Shown one piece after another: positions 24,822-32,733 of a stretch of DNA of 52,098 nucleotides. The DNA comes from Clostridia bacterium. GTDB lineage: Bacteria > Bacillota > Clostridia > Christensenellales > Pumilibacteraceae. The position numbers and the translations under genes are program-made. The number at the start of each line of letters is the position of its first letter. Positions within the stretch are counted from its first letter, which is position 1. The notes beneath the pieces were generated by a model. It searched no databases. It was not told the origin of the DNA and saw only the letters and a program-made list of their open reading frames with translations. The DNA is taken from contig JAGAPA010000089.1 in the NCBI GenBank assembly GCA_017623455.1, positions 1 to 52,098 on the forward strand. The letters run 5' to 3'.

Positions 24822-27623
24822 ATGGGGTTATATACTTGTAAAAACTGCGGAGAGGATATTGAGATAGAGAACGGTCAAAAAACGGTTGTGTGTGATTTTT
24901 GCGGTATGGAGCAAACTTTACCAAAGCTTGATGATCCCAAAAAGCTTGAGCTGTTGCTTGAAGCAAACGACCGCCGTATAAGATGTCGGTTTGATGTTGC
25001 GAAGAAGATGTACGAACAGATAATACAGCAGTATCCCGATGATAACGAGGCGTACTGGTGCAAGCTGTTGTGCGAATTTGGAATAGAGTACGTAGAGGAT
25101 TCTTTGACGGAAAAGAACGTTCCAACCTGTCACAGAACGGTTACGGAAAGTATTTTTGACAATGCAGACTACAAGTTTATTATCGGTAGGGCAACCGCGG
25201 AAGAAAAGAGAATATACGAAGCGGAAGCAATAGAGATTGACCGTATACAGAAAGATATAATAGCAAAGGCGCAAAATGCGGAGAGCTACGACGTTTTCAT
25301 TTGCTACAAAGAAACGGATTTAGAGAGCAGAAAGCGGACGTTGGATTCGCAGTATGCAACAAAGATTTACACGCGCCTTGTTAACAACGGCTACAAGGTC
25401 TTCTTTTCCCGTGTAACGCTCAATCAAATGATGGGTAGCGAGTATGAGCCTGTTATATTTTCGGCGTTAAAAAGCGCAAAGGTTATGCTTCACGTTACGA
25501 CAAGCGAGGCTAATACGAATTCGCCTTGGGTGCGAAACGAGTGGAGCAGATATCTTGAGTTTATGCAAGAGGATGACGGCAAGATTATAGTACCGTGTAT
25601 TGCAAAAATGGATCCTTACGACCTTCCCGAAGAGCTTTCGGAGTTTCAGGTAGCGGTAATGACGGATCTTGATTTTGCAGAAAATTTGTTACGCCAAATA
25701 AACAGTAAGTTTGGCAGAACACCTATGTACGGCATGCCTTATTCTATGCCCACGCCTCCGCCCCCACCTCAGGCTCCTACGGTAAATCCGCAAATTGCAA
25801 ACTTAGTAAGTAGAGCAAAGCTGTTTATTGAGGACGGGGATTGGGAGAATGCAAACAAGTATGCGGAAAACTGTTTGGATATAGATTGCGAGTGCGCAGA
25901 TGCGTATGCCGTAAAGCTGATGTGCGATTTTAAGGTAAACGTATTGCACAAACTTGTCAAAAACGGAGAATTTCTCACTAACCGTAACTTTGTAAAAGCA
26001 ATGCGTTTTGCAAGCGGAGAGCTAAAGAATAAGCTTTTAGATATAGAGAACGAGTACTGGATGGACAAGGCGGAACTTGCAAGTGACAATGATGTGTTTG
26101 ACAATGAATTCTATCTTACGGTTACAGAAAAGTTAAAGAGCTTAGGTTCGTACAGGGGTGCGGATAAGATCCTGAGCGAATTGGAGGCAAAACGGAATGC
26201 GGGCAAAAAAATAGGGCTTATAGTTGACCTTATAAGAATATTGGATGCTATACCCGATATAGGAAAGGGCGAGGACCTGCAACTGAAGCTGTCCGCGGAT
26301 AAGAGGTATTATATTGTAAAAGGCGTTGTTGACGAGAGTATAAAGCAATGCGTTATCCCACGAAAATACAAAGGAATACCAATAAAAGAAATAGCGTCGG
26401 AAGCGTTTAATAAATGTAAAAAATTGGAGAGCGTGGAGATTGGAGAAAACGTAACGACCATAGGATCAAGAGCGTTTTATAATTGCAGTATGCTAAATAG
26501 TATAATAATACCTGCAAGTGTGACAAACATAGGAAATTGCGCGTTCTTTAAATCTATATATCTTACGATTTACTGCGAAGCCGAAAGCAAACCGAGCGGT
26601 TGGGATAATAATTGGTTTTCGGGTCAATCCGGTATCTGGGGATACGGCGGAGAAAAGGGAGAAACGAACGACGGTTGGCGTTGGTGTTTAACGTTGCCGG
26701 ATAACGCTTTGACAATAGCAAGATATACGGGTGATGACGATTTGCAGGTAAACATTCCTACAACAATAAACGGACGTGCGGTAACGGGTATAGGAAGCGG
26801 TGCGTTCGCTCATCGCTTAAACGTAACAAGCGTAACTATTCCCGATAGCGTTACAAGCATAGGTTCTTGCGCTTTTGCTTACTGCTCGTCTATCAAAAAC
26901 ATAACGTTTGGAGAAAAAAGCCGATTGGAAAAAATAGAATACAGGGCGTTTTATGGTTGTCACAGTATAACAAGCATAAAAATTCCCAACAGTGTAGCAA
27001 TAATAGGAAAAGAAGTATTCGGTAATTGCGATAAGCTTATAATTTACAGTGAAGCTACGAGCAGACCAAGCGGTTGGTATAGTATGGAAACTTATTTAAA
27101 ACGTCCTTTTGTGTGGGATTGTAAAAACAATAACGTTGCAGACAACGGGTATATGTACGGAATAACAGTTGGCGGAATAAACTATGCTATAAAGGATAAT
27201 ACCGCAAAAGTTGTGGGAACGAATATAAGTGGAGATATAGCGATTCCCAAAACAATACCGTATAAGTCTAAACAATATTCGGTAACAGCAATAGGTGATA
27301 GGGCGTTTGCACACTGTGATATTACAAGTATTAAAATACCTGATAGTATAGTAACTATAGAAAACTTTGCATTCTACAGTTGCGAGGCATTAACAAGCGT
27401 GGAAATTCCCAATAGCGTTACAAGCATAGGATGTTATACGTTCAGTGGTTGCAATAATTTAACAGCTATAAAAATTCCAAGAAGTGTAACAAATATGCGA
27501 AACTGGGCGTTCTCCTATTGCTCTAAGCTTACAATTTACTGTGAAGTTGCAAGCAAACCGAGCGGTTGGGACAACGATTGGAATTATTCAAATAATCTGG
27601 TTATATGGGGATATAAGAATTAG
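24822..27623 (+). CDS. Zinc-ribbon / TIR / leucine-rich-repeat protein
   Basis: 933 residues with no signal peptide, so probably cytoplasmic. An N-terminal zinc ribbon has Cys6, Cys9, Cys24 and Cys27 (CKNC, CDFC). A helical part follows (40-150). The TIR domain (about 154-300) has SYDVFICYKETD, the FSRVTLNQMMGSEYEPVIF loop, and SPWVRNEWSRYLEF, where Glu240 sits where NADase TIR domains carry the catalytic glutamate. A proline linker (PTPPPPPQAP, near 310) leads to a TPR-like helical part (325-470), then seven or more BspA-type LRR_5 repeats (about 505-930). TIR domains either cleave NAD or act as adaptors, and LRRs can sense ligands. A defence or signalling role is inference. It is a single gene with AGGAG, its own promoter and a terminator. 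Confidence 0.85.
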   Translation: MGLYTCKNCGEDIEIENGQKTVVCDFCGMEQTLPKLDDPKKLELLLEANDRRIRCRFDVAKKMYEQIIQQYPDDNEAYWCKLLCEFGIEYVEDSLTEKNVPTCHRTVTESIFDNADYKFIIGRATAEEKRIYEAEAIEIDRIQKDIIAKAQNAESYDVFICYKETDLESRKRTLDSQYATKIYTRLVNNGYKVFFSRVTLNQMMGSEYEPVIFSALKSAKVMLHVTTSEANTNSPWVRNEWSRYLEFMQEDDGKIIVPCIAKMDPYDLPEELSEFQVAVMTDLDFAENLLRQINSKFGRTPMYGMPYSMPTPPPPPQAPTVNPQIANLVSRAKLFIEDGDWENANKYAENCLDIDCECADAYAVKLMCDFKVNVLHKLVKNGEFLTNRNFVKAMRFASGELKNKLLDIENEYWMDKAELASDNDVFDNEFYLTVTEKLKSLGSYRGADKILSELEAKRNAGKKIGLIVDLIRILDAIPDIGKGEDLQLKLSADKRYYIVKGVVDESIKQCVIPRKYKGIPIKEIASEAFNKCKKLESVEIGENVTTIGSRAFYNCSMLNSIIIPASVTNIGNCAFFKSIYLTIYCEAESKPSGWDNNWFSGQSGIWGYGGEKGETNDGWRWCLTLPDNALTIARYTGDDDLQVNIPTTINGRAVTGIGSGAFAHRLNVTSVTIPDSVTSIGSCAFAYCSSIKNITFGEKSRLEKIEYRAFYGCHSITSIKIPNSVAIIGKEVFGNCDKLIIYSEATSRPSGWYSMETYLKRPFVWDCKNNNVADNGYMYGITVGGINYAIKDNTAKVVGTNISGDIAIPKTIPYKSKQYSVTAIGDRAFAHCDITSIKIPDSIVTIENFAFYSCEALTSVEIPNSVTSIGCYTFSGCNNLTAIKIPRSVTNMRNWAFSYCSKLTIYCEVASKPSGWDNDWNYSNNLVIWGYKN

Positions 27624-27638
27624 TGTTTTCAAATCGAT

Positions 27639-27677
27639 AAAAAGGCTTGCGGATGTTTTGTCCGTGAGCCTTTTTTT
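27639..27677. terminator. Bidirectional intrinsic terminator
   Basis: A 15-bp stem (27639-27653 with 27661-27675, two G-U pairs). T runs occur on both strands, so it would also stop leftward transcription from the inverton promoter. Confidence 0.85.
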
Positions 27678-27850
27678 GCGTAATGTGAAAAAAAGAAGCA
27701 TACGTATAAGGGATTTTGGTGTTTATTGTGGTTGGAAAACATATTTGATGCAGATGATTAATCCATAATATTGGATAGTATCGATAAATGCAAAAACTAC
27801 GGTTGTACGCTTCAATGGGCGCATATAATCGCAGTTATTTTCGCGTTATT

Positions 27851-28060
27851 TTGTTCGTGGAATAGTATATTCAGCGAATGTTTGCCACATTCTCAACCGA
27901 ACGCGTCGGCAAAACCCCTGAAATTTTACCCATTCAATACAGTTTAGTACTATAATAAATACAGTATAACACTAATTTGCTTTCATTGCAACAATATTTT
28001 CACTTTTATTTTTATTTTAATTTAAAAATTTGTTCGCTGAATATACTATTCGCAGAACAA
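27851..28060. promoter_or_regulatory. Putative invertible promoter (inverton)
   Basis: Inverted repeats at 27851-27878 and 28033-28060 match at 25 of 28 positions: six outer bases, three mismatches, then a perfect 19-bp core GAATAGTATATTCAGCGAA. They enclose 154 bp. The core contains its own dyad (GAATA-GTA-TATTC), as recombinase sites often do. The enclosed DNA holds a good promoter on the minus strand, pointing away from the lipoprotein gene 18 bp beyond the right arm. Inversion would place it facing the gene at about 27920-27948. No recombinase gene is in the window. Confidence 0.65.
27963..27991 (-). promoter_or_regulatory. SigA-type promoter inside the inverton, facing left
   Basis: On the minus strand: TTGCAA (27991-27986), a 17-bp spacer, TATACT (27968-27963) preceded by TG, an extended -10. 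On the plus strand only a TATAAT at 27951 without a matching -35 is seen. Confidence 0.7.
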
Positions 28061-28077
28061 TTTATCAGGAGGAAAAT

Positions 28078-31000
28078 ATGGATAAGAAAAAACTGTTAAG
28101 CTTAGGTATAGCCGGAGCTTTGTGCTTCACCGTAGGCGGAATGGCAGTAGCTTGCGCTACGCCCGAAGGGGGCGGAGGCGGAGAAACGCCACCCGTAACG
28201 CACGAGATTACCGCTACTATCGGTTCTACGACCATTGAGGTAGGACAAAACGAATCGATAAGTTTGGACGTTGCTACGATGGAGGGCGAGGAGTTCAGAT
28301 ACGTTATCGACAACTCGGGAATCATTCGTTACGATGCGGTAAACGGCAAGATCGTTGCCTTACAGCCCGGTACTGCAACTATTACCTTTGCAGTAAAGAG
28401 CGCGCCGTCCGTTACAAAGAGCATTACTATTACCGTAACTCCCATTTCTGCGCAGTACGACGTAGTAGTAGGAGATAACGCTCCCGTTAAGGTTGTGCAC
28501 GGAAACAAGATTGACAAGCCTGCCGATCCCGTAAAAGAGCCTACCTTAAGCACTGTTTATACCTTTGATTGCTGGATAAAGCAGGGTAGTGATATTGAGT
28601 GGGATTTCGATACTCCCGTAACCGGCCCCGTTGTTTTGGAGGCTAAGTGGATTGAGTCAGTGAGAAAATATTCGGTAAAGATAGGCGAGGATAGCGCGGA
28701 ATACGAATATGGCGCAAAGCTTATCAAGCCTGCCGATCCTGCCGATTATATCACCGCTACCAAGGTTTATACTTTCGCAGGATGGAAGAACAAAGAAACC
28801 GACGAGGTTTGGAATTTTAACGTTGACAAGGTTAACGGAGAAGGAATAGAACTCATTCCGTATTTTACCGAAGCTGACAGATATTTTGACGTAAGCGTAG
28901 CAGTTGGCGCTAAGAAGATATCTATTGGCGGTAAGCAGTACGCAACTTACGAATTCAGTAATAGCGAAATAAGGGATATGAACGTTGTTTTAAGCGATGG
29001 CGAAAACGATATTCCCGTAGTGAACGGAAAGGCAAACGTTCTTCCCGGAACTTATACCGTAAAACTCAATTATAACGGCAACGAGTACACCTCTTCCGTA
29101 GTTGTGGGAGAGAGCGAAGCAAATGCCGTAGCCATAGAGCTTAGTACAAGTAAGCTTAACGGCTCTGTGGGCGGATTTGACAGCTTTGCGCACGGCAGTA
29201 AAAAGGTTGTGAGCGGTGACGAGGTATGGCTTGGATATTACGACTATACGTATCAAGATAAGGTTCAGGGGTCTGAGTACTATATCGAAAGTAATATTTC
29301 ATTCGAGCCTTTCGCGGGTAAGACAAATGCAAACCTTGTAGGACTTATGCCTGCAGTATACAATGCAGACCTCAGTTCAAACGGCGCAGGAAAGCTTATC
29401 GTAGGCGTAACGCAGGAAGGTAAGCTTGCATATACAATCGCAGGCGGTTGGGGAACGAAAGCTACCGAGATTGCGGACGTTAGCGACAAGGTAACCTTTA
29501 ACGGCGACGCATATTCTTATAAGCTCGGCGTATACAGAAAGGGCGCGGAGTTTGCAATCTTTGTAAACGACGAATATATCGATACCCTTACGATTGGAAT
29601 GTTTGAAGAATGTGGATTTGGCGTAGGTTCTATGGCAGACAATCAGACAAACGGCTTTACCAAGTTTACGGAGTTTAAGTATTCGTTCAACGAGGAATTG
29701 CTTGCGGACTTGTATACGGCAACGAACGAAGCTGAAGCTATTTGGGTAAACGCGGTATTGGATAGCGATTACGTAATGTATAACGGCACGAAAGTATATC
29801 TTCAGGACGAAATTACTTACGACCTTGCAAAGCGCGTAAAGCTTGAAATTTTTGACAGCGAGAACAATCTCGTAAAGACGGTTTATACCGCGCATCGCCG
29901 TTCCGCATTTGCGCTTAAGCCGGGTACGTATAAGCTAAAAGCAACCTTTATGGGAACGCAGGCTAACACGGTAAAAGAAACCGAGTTCGCTCTTGTAAAG
30001 ACCTCGAGATCGTTTGTATACAATCTTTCTCTTACAGATATCGGCGGATCGTACACGCTTCCTAGCGGAACTAAGGTAGGCTCGTTCGGACAGTTCTATA
30101 CCTTCCCCTCGGCTGATAGCATAAGCCTTTCAAATAACTCTTACGCGTATATCAACGGCGTAACGGGTAGTACCTACTACATTGAGGCAACCATCACAAA
30201 GAAAGAAAAAGGTTGGCACGGATTTATCCTTAACTCGTCAGAGGGTGCGCCCACAAATGGATTTAAGAAGGTTGTAGCAGCTGTTTACGACGACGGAAGC
30301 GGAAATCCCTCGCTCTTCGTTCAACGCAGTATAGAGCACAGTTGGGGCTCGGGTGTAGGTATGGGCTCGGTTGCATCGTACACGGGTACGGGCGACACCT
30401 ACAAACTTTCGGCGCTTCGTGTAAACAACAAGTACACCTTGTATATCAACGGTACAGTGGTTTGGAGTGAAACTATCGACTCTTTAACAAAGGACGGAAA
30501 GGTTCTTCCCGCGGACAATATTTCGGGATTTGGTATCTTTAGAGGAAGCAACTTCAGTCCCGCTGCTCCCACTTTGAAGGATATTAAGTACACGACCAAT
30601 TTAGAGGCTATAAACGCGATCTTCAAGGGCGAAACGGCAACGTTGGAAGCTCCCGAAAGCGTAACCGTTGTATCGGGTGACAGAAACGTAAAAGACGGCG
30701 GACAGCTTTACGGATTTGAAGGTAAGACCAAGCTGGTTAAGGTTGACGTTCCCGACGGAAAAGTAATTTCCCACTTCGCTGTAAAGATTAACGGTAAAGA
30801 GCAGGAGTTCGGTTATACTGCCGACGGCTCTTTCAAGTTCGATCTTAATACAAACGGAACCGTAGCGATTGACGTTGAGTTTGAGGATGCAAAGGAAACA
30901 ACTCTTACGCTTTCTTACGAATCTGCATACGTAGAAAAAGACGGCAAAAAGATTGCACTTTACGATCTTTCGGGTATTAACCCTGCAGACGTAACGGTAG

Positions 31001-32733
31001 AAGTTATCAATATCTACGGCGGTAAGACGGATACTTTCGTGTTTGACGGCACGAGCAAAACTCTTAACGTAACGACGGGAACCTTTAAGATCAGCTTTGT
31101 TTACAAGAATAACTTGTGGAGCAAGGATATCGTTATCGGCGAGGACGGAGCTGAGGTTGTGGGCTTGCTTTCCGACGTATACCTTGGCGGAGCAATTACC
31201 TTTACCGCAAATACCGGTGCTCAGACCACCATTAAGTCGTTTGATAAAGCGGAAGTCGGTGCAACTTCAGGTAACGGTTGGGCACTTGTGGATGGGTACA
31301 GAAACAGTGTAAGAACATCCAGCTATACTTTCGCATTCCAAAACGAAGTAGTTGGTAGCAAGTACTATCTTGAGGGCGTATTCGATTCTACGGCAACGTC
31401 TTACAACATGTACGACAATAAATTCTCAGGCTTGCTTATCGCTCACGCTAACGATACGGTTTTGGACGGAAACGGACACAATAAGTCGGTAGCGTACATC
31501 AAGAACGATAGCGTTGTACTTGGTCATACTGATGCTTGGTCACTTTCTATGCCTATTACTATCGCAAACTACAAAGACGTGCTTGGCGAGGGCAACTACG
31601 ATCCTACCGCTGTTAAGCTCGGAGTTCTTCGTAACGGAACAGACTTCTACTTCTTTGTAAACGACGTATTCGTAGCATATAGAAAGATTGATACGTACGG
31701 AACTAACGTAAGCGGATTTGGAGTTGCGTCTAACGTAGTAACTAACGTTATTTCTAACTTCAACTACACCACTAACGAACAAGCGTTAAACGCAATAACC
31801 GAAGGCATTAAGGTAACCGACCGCTCTATTGATATCTATCTTATCGCTGGTCAGTCAAACGCTGCAGGTTATACCAACTTCAGTTCAGCTAACCTTCTTC
31901 CCCTTGACGATCATTATATCTACGGCTACCAGAACATTATGTACGCAGGTAATGCAGAATCTTCGGGAAATAACTATACTACAACAGTTGACCACGAGCA
32001 TCCTTGGTCGTTACTCCGTGCAGGTCAGGGCGCAGGAACAGGCAAGATCGGACCCGAGATCGGTATGGCAAACGTTCTTTCTTCCTACTATAACGTAGAA
32101 AGTGGAAGAGAGGCGGGAATTATCAAGTTCGCTCACGGTGGAACTTGCTTGCTCGACTCTATCGGCGGTGAGAATGCAACGGGCGGAAACTGGGTGCCCC
32201 CCTCATATGAGGCAACTATTACTCCCAAATCTGCCGGAAATCTTACGGGCGGATTGTACAGAAGCTTGTTGGAGCAGGTAGAAAAGAATATCGGCGAGCT
32301 TAAGGCTATGGGATATTCGGATATTAAGGTTAAGGGCTTGTACTGGATGCAGGGTGAGTCTGACAAGGGCAACCCCACCGAGTACCTAAAGGCATTCAAG
32401 TACTTTGCATCTGACGTAAGAAGAGATCTTACGGAGATTTGCGGTCAGGATCTGTCCAAGATGCCCATACTTATCGGTGAAATTTCCAGAACGTCAGGCT
32501 CTGCAGTTGTCGGTACGGTAAATACCAACAATGCATTTATTGCAATGCAGAGAACCATTCCCGATCACGTAAACGATACTTACGTAATTGCGGCAGGTGA
32601 TTACGATATCAACAAGCTCGTAAACGGAAACAATACGGCTGTTGGTACTGATAGCTGGCACTGGAATTACAAAGATCATATCGACATCGGTAAGCTTGTA
32701 GGTAACTGTATTCTTAACAATATCTTAAAATAA
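28078..32733 (+). CDS. Giant lipoprotein with C-terminal SASA/SGNH carbohydrate esterase
   Basis: 1,551 residues. The ATG at 28078 follows AGGAGGAAAAT; an in-frame upstream ATG at 28030 overlaps the inverted repeat and adds a non-signal extension. A signal peptide ends in AVAC (lipobox-like, Cys at 24). Then come a Gly-rich linker, a BIG2 Ig-like domain (about 40-125), two InlB-type repeats (about 130-275), and three or four LamG-like modules (about 300-1,240), each with an 'IFVNDEYI' or 'LYINGTVV' strand. The C-terminal SASA domain (PF03629; 1,250-1,551) has IAGQSNAAGY with nucleophile Ser1260, WMQGESD at 1423-1429, and Asp1525/His1528. Such enzymes remove acetyl groups from glycans or sialic acids. 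It is likely a surface glycan-binding esterase, possibly phase-variable. Confidence 0.88.
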   Translation: MDKKKLLSLGIAGALCFTVGGMAVACATPEGGGGGETPPVTHEITATIGSTTIEVGQNESISLDVATMEGEEFRYVIDNSGIIRYDAVNGKIVALQPGTATITFAVKSAPSVTKSITITVTPISAQYDVVVGDNAPVKVVHGNKIDKPADPVKEPTLSTVYTFDCWIKQGSDIEWDFDTPVTGPVVLEAKWIESVRKYSVKIGEDSAEYEYGAKLIKPADPADYITATKVYTFAGWKNKETDEVWNFNVDKVNGEGIELIPYFTEADRYFDVSVAVGAKKISIGGKQYATYEFSNSEIRDMNVVLSDGENDIPVVNGKANVLPGTYTVKLNYNGNEYTSSVVVGESEANAVAIELSTSKLNGSVGGFDSFAHGSKKVVSGDEVWLGYYDYTYQDKVQGSEYYIESNISFEPFAGKTNANLVGLMPAVYNADLSSNGAGKLIVGVTQEGKLAYTIAGGWGTKATEIADVSDKVTFNGDAYSYKLGVYRKGAEFAIFVNDEYIDTLTIGMFEECGFGVGSMADNQTNGFTKFTEFKYSFNEELLADLYTATNEAEAIWVNAVLDSDYVMYNGTKVYLQDEITYDLAKRVKLEIFDSENNLVKTVYTAHRRSAFALKPGTYKLKATFMGTQANTVKETEFALVKTSRSFVYNLSLTDIGGSYTLPSGTKVGSFGQFYTFPSADSISLSNNSYAYINGVTGSTYYIEATITKKEKGWHGFILNSSEGAPTNGFKKVVAAVYDDGSGNPSLFVQRSIEHSWGSGVGMGSVASYTGTGDTYKLSALRVNNKYTLYINGTVVWSETIDSLTKDGKVLPADNISGFGIFRGSNFSPAAPTLKDIKYTTNLEAINAIFKGETATLEAPESVTVVSGDRNVKDGGQLYGFEGKTKLVKVDVPDGKVISHFAVKINGKEQEFGYTADGSFKFDLNTNGTVAIDVEFEDAKETTLTLSYESAYVEKDGKKIALYDLSGINPADVTVEVINIYGGKTDTFVFDGTSKTLNVTTGTFKISFVYKNNLWSKDIVIGEDGAEVVGLLSDVYLGGAITFTANTGAQTTIKSFDKAEVGATSGNGWALVDGYRNSVRTSSYTFAFQNEVVGSKYYLEGVFDSTATSYNMYDNKFSGLLIAHANDTVLDGNGHNKSVAYIKNDSVVLGHTDAWSLSMPITIANYKDVLGEGNYDPTAVKLGVLRNGTDFYFFVNDVFVAYRKIDTYGTNVSGFGVASNVVTNVISNFNYTTNEQALNAITEGIKVTDRSIDIYLIAGQSNAAGYTNFSSANLLPLDDHYIYGYQNIMYAGNAESSGNNYTTTVDHEHPWSLLRAGQGAGTGKIGPEIGMANVLSSYYNVESGREAGIIKFAHGGTCLLDSIGGENATGGNWVPPSYEATITPKSAGNLTGGLYRSLLEQVEKNIGELKAMGYSDIKVKGLYWMQGESDKGNPTEYLKAFKYFASDVRRDLTEICGQDLSKMPILIGEISRTSGSAVVGTVNTNNAFIAMQRTIPDHVNDTYVIAAGDYDINKLVNGNNTAVGTDSWHWNYKDHIDIGKLVGNCILNNILK

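Follow-up and report, generated by a model that had tools for sequence, protein, structure and literature searches.

The window, the whole stretch of 52,098 nucleotides that was analysed, carries at 28078–32733 on its plus strand a lipoprotein gene. Domain search assigned to its product a match to List-Bact repeats and, at the C-terminus, a SASA esterase domain; the lipobox was recognized by eye. Upstream of this gene lie two inverted arms of 28 nt each (27851–27878 and 28033–28060), which are complementary at 25 of 28 positions (89%) and enclose 154 nt. Within them, a 19-bp core is present as two exact copies in the window, inverted to each other; chance would give 0.01 matches at up to three mismatches, and none of 100 shuffles contained two copies. 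An earlier sequence-only reading had described these arms with their perfect core, and had taken them to bound an inverton that is currently OFF and served by an invertase encoded elsewhere; the geometry was reproduced in every respect. What that reading missed is the palindromic nature of each arm, the genome-wide set to which the arms belong, and the helical spacing of the sites.

Each window arm is a 27-bp palindromic site. The left site occupies 27853–27879 (plus strand) with the central 7-mer TAGTATA, and the right site occupies 28032–28058 (minus strand) with the identical central 7-mer inverted, both being defined by the repeat, a genome pattern search and core comparison; the right site has drifted on one side (TTCTGCG). 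Between the two lies the candidate invertible segment of 152 bp (27880–28031), the site centres being 179 bp, or ~17 helical turns, apart. The window thus presents the arrangement expected of an inverton, with short inverted repeats around one dominant promoter ahead of a gene. For this locus, a search for an orthologue in the same genus returned gene-level similarity only from one genome (G001) and nothing from the other (G002).

The promoter within the segment (27963–27991, minus strand; TTGCAA-17-TATACT, with TG before the second hexamer) was located by consensus scan and faces left, as had been claimed. The strength ascribed to it did not hold up: 62 of 200 segment shuffles gave an equally good promoter, and a scan of the region found 3 promoter-like sites against 2.5 in shuffles. 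However, a second locus on contig C3 keeps the promoter (TTGCAA-17-TATAAT) together with an A-rich upstream tract, in identical orientation to its gene, which supports the window promoter despite its low score. Mirroring about the arms places the inverted promoter at 27920–27948, ~125 nt before the ATG at 28078, which agrees by simple arithmetic with the position and leader length proposed earlier. A terminator had also been proposed at 27639–27677 to stop leftward transcripts. A hairpin is indeed present at 27639–27675, after the upstream TIR/LRR gene, and its minus-strand fold of –15.8 kcal/mol was equalled by none of 200 shuffles; it could also stop leftward transcripts, but a leftward transcript would meet an earlier terminator-like hairpin at ~27785–27835 (minus strand), with –16.5 kcal/mol and 7 of 200 shuffles as good. 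The C3 counterpart of the latter reaches –19.8 kcal/mol (z –5.7, 0 of 200 shuffles) and ends in a U run. A consensus terminator scan of 27600–28100 found no terminators, and so lists neither hairpin. The upstream gene (24822–27623) encodes a TIR protein with a zinc-ribbon-like start and BspA-type leucine-rich repeats, of the same kind as switch-linked genes on C3, C15 and C47; no site was found at its start in the genome pattern search, and defence-system models gave no match to the TIR proteins.

A genome-wide set of paired palindromic sites

The sequence-only reading had suggested looking for further copies of the arm core. The genome (2.40 Mb in 96 contigs, 77.6% complete) was searched first with this core and then with the site pattern GTTCG-NN-GAWT-N5-AWTC-NN-CGAAC at up to three mismatches, using the pattern read backwards as control. 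This yielded 26 sites compared to 4 in the control. Eighteen of these form nine inverted pairs, located on the window contig (C26), C3 (two pairs), C16, C83 (two), C22, C51 and C65, and all nine pairs have the half-site pattern in common. Four are single sites (C15, C47, C84 and C86), and the remaining four (two on C2, one on C78, and C65:11710), equal in number to the control, are probably chance matches. The same-genus genomes lack such a set, with 6 sites versus 5 in the control for G001 and 1 versus 0 for G002.

The central 7-mer is identical within all nine pairs. At the five central positions left free by the pattern, partners agree in 45 of 45 comparisons, whereas their arms agree in 139 of 180. 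Comparison of different loci, in either orientation, gave a shared central 5-mer in only 3 of 36 cases. The nine pairs have six different cores between them, that of the window being also the core of the lipoprotein locus on C3. Among relatives in other genomes, the core is identical in 33 of 35 pairs that were picked without regard to it. An identical, pair-specific core fits strand exchange between partner sites and should keep most loci apart, and an odd-length site with a 7-bp core suits a tyrosine recombinase better than a serine recombinase. Looping repressors also use palindromic sites, helically phased around a promoter, and the window sites could accordingly be a pair of operators for a looping repressor or activator around a segment that never flips. 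Operators, however, need no identical locus-specific centre in both copies.

The state of each locus was called from the strongest promoter in its segment, with promoter calls being plain consensus counts. At five loci (C26, both on C3, C16 and C65) this promoter points away from the gene (OFF), and at three (both on C83, and C51) it points towards the gene (ON); the C22 pair could not be assigned, as its contig ends one base past the site, before any gene. All eight other pairs have promoter scores above that of the window, with equally good promoters in 14 of 200 shuffles for C3 (28336), 7 of 200 for C16, and 0–2 of 200 for the other six. At C15, C47 and C86, inspection by eye reveals a TTGAMA-17-TATAAT promoter that reads through one good remaining site into the gene, as if these loci were locked ON; C47 also has an apparent damaged second site (by eye). 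The single site on C84 (7731–7757) has no promoter, with a decayed SipW-type gene behind it (by eye), and has the look of a scar left where the outer halves of a pair like that on C51 became joined.

Such single-site loci raise the alternative that the window holds a former inverton, its sites kept by descent and its promoter stuck OFF, and both the drifted side of the right site and the weak promoter are in keeping with this. Against decay, both window cores are intact and identical, and the C3 copy has the same layout. In addition, both promoter directions occur among the sister loci, which suggests activity of the system in the fairly recent past. We therefore regard a switch that no longer flips as very unlikely.

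The genes under these switches encode lipoproteins, SipW-dependent surface proteins and a TIR protein. The SipW-dependent signal TIGR04088 was matched above its cut-off in four scanned proteins, those of C16, C83 (one of the two), C51 and C65. The proteins encoded at the second C3 locus, C15 and C47 start with what by eye resembles a zinc ribbon, have a TIR domain, and end in LRR or DUF6273 sequences.

Tyrosine recombinases and neighbouring cassettes

As stated in the sequence-only reading, no recombinase lies near the locus: neither PF00589 nor PF00239 was found on the window contig. The genome-wide profile search for invertases proposed there revealed two tyrosine recombinases (PF00589), on C94 and C63. 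No serine resolvase (PF00239) was detected at E 0.001 in the 77.6% complete genome, and a serine invertase was thus set aside as the switch enzyme. The C94 protein matches PF00589 at 1.4e-24, and R156, H260, R263, H286 and Y296, corresponding to the R, HxxR, H, Y catalytic motif of tyrosine recombinases, are invariant in 18 sequences. The closest solved chains by sequence profile are PDB 6en0, 6emy and 6emz ('Int protein'; 1.8e-26), which we take to be the Tn1549 integrase. That enzyme moves a conjugative transposon; unlike it, the C94 family sits beside inverted promoter cassettes. On the 3′ side of the C94 gene are a 200-aa ORF and a SipW-like signal peptidase, followed further on by a second peptidase and a SipW-type protein; both peptidases gave matches to NF046067 (4.5e-17 and 3.6e-18) that stay under the cut-off of that model. 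At E ≤1e-40, 31 of 74 genomes contain members of the C94 family, the genome of C94 included (33 of 74 at 1e-20), with 33–54% identity outside that genome; the nearest relative (54%) belongs to the same-genus genome G001.

Relatives of the recombinase were compared in 80 named records, 75 of them with enough 3′ flank and nearly all titled as Clostridia or other Firmicutes (the exceptions by title being L136 and L182, Bacteroidales and Phocaeicola). A palindromic site pair with a score of at least 38 lies 3′ of the recombinase at 63 of the 75 named loci, the first site being centred 14–152 bp after the recombinase match (median 26); at the other 12, no pair reached the threshold. Control scores peaked at 38 for the 5′ flanks and at 36 for 150 single-letter shuffles, 57 of 75 loci scored 39 or more, and by a second score 51 of 75 exceeded all 75 of the 5′ flanks. 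Because the 38-point score includes core as well as palindrome, the core test was redone without the core. For sites chosen partly as palindromes, 83% of half-site cells are complementary; shuffling lowers this figure to 70% and sliding to 43% or less. Adjacency of site pairs to tyrosine recombinases in so many relatives also argues against the looping operators considered above.

Promoters of at least 10.5 points are present in 44 of 63 segments, as against 13 of 315 shuffles. Of the 44, 40 point towards the recombinase and 4 towards the next gene, so the assemblies mostly show the presumed OFF state. By a simple rule applied to 60 of the 63 loci, the next genes include nine List-Bact repeat proteins and several DNA methylases (five PF01555 and two PF00145), the latter also examined with PADLOC methylase models. 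At some of the loci L128–L207, DNA methylases or helicases belonging to restriction-type systems come after the switch, and phage defence may be phase-variable in the relatives with such cassettes. We also observed a recurrent small protein after the cassette, mostly of ~155 aa and starting like IYRVSFIGHR (L132, L133, L136, L137, L140, L143, L144, L156, L157, L159, L167, L170, L173, L177 and L189); 2 of the 60 scanned next-gene proteins match the YspA SLOG family weakly.

Recombinase and sites co-occur across genomes, with sites in 27 of the 31 genomes that have the recombinase versus 5 of the 43 that lack it (p 4e-11), at a cut-off of E 1e-40 by which G006 and G057, with matches of only 1e-21, count as lacking it. 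The site model was trained on the relatives' sites, some probably from genomes later scanned, such that this co-occurrence is not fully independent. Among the matches listed, and under stricter filters, the model scan returned matches in 32 of the 74 family genomes; with both strands of each palindrome counted, those listed number 35 for the window's own genome, 41 for G030 and 30 for G029, and 0–11 elsewhere. Judging from these counts, dispersal of the sites away from the recombinase probably took place repeatedly. Recombinase similarity tracks site similarity over 64 loci (Mantel 0 of 999; rho 0.34, or 0.23 for pairs less than 80% identical).

Taken together, the family, the position of the C94 protein as its only close member in the incomplete assembly, the co-occurrence and the sipW neighbourhood make the C94 recombinase the likely invertase of these switches. 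The second tyrosine recombinase, on C63, was rejected for this role; it is 32% identical and has inovirus-like neighbours, as judged from translations read by eye. From the same reading, the C63 locus (L059) has genes resembling an integrated inovirus with its own integrase.

The switches could nevertheless be real and be operated by a recombinase encoded in the missing part of the assembly, or with help from the C63 integrase. The incompleteness of the genome leaves room for another invertase, and C94, unlike most relatives, has no adjacent pair: the best score beside it is 33, inside the range of the 5′ flank controls. Neither does half-site similarity single out C94 (row rho 0.08, p 0.53), which is about equally distant from all relatives, and G001 has the nearest C94 relative yet no genome-wide sites. 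On the other side, C94 is the assembly's sole close member of the site-linked family, the C63 enzyme is both divergent and surrounded by inovirus-like genes, and two sipW-like genes are found near C94, the presumed substrates of their products being encoded under several of the switches. Participation of a different enzyme consequently seems unlikely, though it deserves to be kept in view, and we infer that it is the C94 recombinase that acts on the window segment.

Orientation of related segments and spacing of the sites

Comparison of related loci in other genomes provides a view of inversion itself. The outer flanks of L162 and L195 are 0.87 and 0.89 identical, while their interiors are 0.49 identical as they stand and 0.84 when one is turned; the alignment score rises from 210 to 311.5 on turning the whole site-to-site piece, and from 209 to 260 for L162 and L165. 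G030 contains four pilin-like (prepilin-like) genes with flanks 0.79–0.98 identical, each with its own cassette and identical sites, and the cassette of L209 is turned relative to those of L208, L211 and L214. Nine locus pairs have both flanks at least 0.8 identical, seven being alike and two turned (both involving L162), so that most close relatives agree in orientation, a point against the inverton reading. Three of 17 locus pairs with an interior identity of at least 0.72 are turned; for unrelated interiors, the 95th percentile of identity is 0.66 and the 99th is 0.72. Such turned segments, in some relatives and sister loci, are inversion as seen by comparison of sequences. A fixed orientation would be expected of looping operators and is not what these related and sister loci display; we consider operators a very improbable explanation of the window sites.

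The nine pairs, their pair-specific cores, the two promoter directions, the turned relatives and the adjacency to recombinases all lend support to the proposal of an OFF-state inverton with its invertase elsewhere. We infer, with considerable confidence, that the window segment is an invertible promoter flipped by a tyrosine recombinase and that the lipoprotein is OFF as oriented, the same enzyme probably serving at least eight other loci in the genome. In this mechanism, the recombinase would bind the two palindromic sites, bend the DNA between them into a small loop and exchange strands inside the identical central 7 bp, thereby reversing the 152-bp segment. As the segment now lies, transcription from the promoter would run left towards the terminator-like hairpin and leave the lipoprotein silent; in the flipped state it would run right, with a leader of ~125 nt. 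Mostly locus-specific cores would cause each site to recombine mainly with its partner.

The distance between paired sites was evaluated over 52 named loci, which remained from 63 after removing near-identical site pairs and are still related to one another. Their centre-to-centre distances fall at 117, 126–129, 137–139, 147–150, 158–159, 169 and 191 bp, corresponding to R 0.90 at a period of 10.5 bp (Rayleigh p ~5e-19); no jittered set did as well, either with a free period (0 of 2000) or at 10.5 (0 of 20,000). The nine pairs of the window's genome (137–179 bp) give R 0.91, a value reached by 4 of 2000 jittered sets when the pairs are collapsed to seven loci. Eighteen further pairs from other genomes, measured from 20 regions picked by eye (G030 holds more), give R 0.76. 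The 22 distinct distances, each used once, again yield R 0.76, unmatched by any of 20,000 jittered sets. Overall, 76 of 79 pairs exceed a whole number of turns by at most 3.15 bp; the rest are 157 (half a base short), 161 and 225 bp, and three more pairs outside those sets measure 136 (half a base short), 168 (on the turn) and 142 bp. The last of these, L127 (G055:C4), is a strong pair behind a recombinase (score 46) whose 142 bp amount to 13.5 turns, a clear exception to the spacing rule. The spacing is thus nearly always a whole number of helical turns, with 142, 161 and 225 bp as exceptions, and the empty gaps between spacing classes indicate that common descent alone is insufficient to explain it.

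DNA has a persistence length of ~150 bp, and the likely reason for the phasing is that sites on a loop of about this length must face each other; whole-turn spacing would permit them to do so. With moderate confidence, we favour the broader view that one tyrosine invertase governs a regulon spread over the whole genome, that most loci are kept from recombining with one another by their different 7-bp cores, that sites lie nearly always whole turns apart (~11 to 19) by virtue of a twist-sensitive loop, and that the sites have spread from an ancestral recombinase-side cassette at least twice (in the window's own genome and in G030). With the repeat centre taken as the site centre, the coordinates of two group-139 invertons in PMC11892184 correspond to spacings of 231 and 241 bp (22.0 and 23.0 turns). 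For three invertons of other groups described there, which are longer (650, 382 and 414 bp), the values are 61.9, 36.4 and 39.4 turns; we take these figures as no more than a hint in support of the helical rule. The words 'helical', 'periodic' and 'palindrom' have no occurrences in the main text of PMC11892184. Helical spacing of invertons was not found in searches of open-licence papers, where only one on the serine invertase Hin surfaced; DNA inversion at SipW-dependent genes was likewise not found in the open-licence literature.

Relation to known inversion systems

Inversion at several loci has already been described for Mpi and RecV (PMC5903667), as has the presence of tyrosine recombinases next to invertons in Clostridia (PMC11892184). 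In Bacteroides fragilis, the serine invertase Mpi acts on at least 13 invertible regions (PMC5903667), and the present set resembles this regulon in that one recombinase probably serves many surface-gene promoter inversions. Unlike Mpi, the enzyme here is a tyrosine recombinase, no serine resolvase having been found in the genome, and the odd-length sites carry an identical 7-bp core that differs between most loci, in an organism outside Bacteroides. In the RecV/Cdi switches of Clostridioides difficile, too, a tyrosine recombinase acts in trans on several invertible segments in Clostridia, but their inverted repeats are reported to be unrelated except for Cdi2 and Cdi5 (PMC5903667), whereas one half-site pattern is found in all nine pairs here. 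Inverton group 139 and invertase group 35 of Clostridia, for which orientation change in culture is reported (PMC11892184), also involve a tyrosine recombinase adjoining invertons, as in the relatives' cassettes; this likeness is one of description. What sets the present system apart is a probable tyrosine recombinase regulon spread over many loci, most of them with a core of their own, and with site spacing in phase with the helix.

The set suggests that each cell sets by chance its adhesin-like lipoproteins, SipW-dependent surface proteins and TIR proteins, and in relatives its DNA methylases and pilins. The helical rule, if physical, would show how small tyrosine invertases pair their sites. 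Together with the palindromic site, it offers a means to find switches, partner sites and a candidate enzyme from assemblies of uncultured gut Clostridia without reads. Several contigs end at or near a switch (L064 on C22, L226 on G053:C6, L213 and L208), which mixed orientations in the sample could cause.
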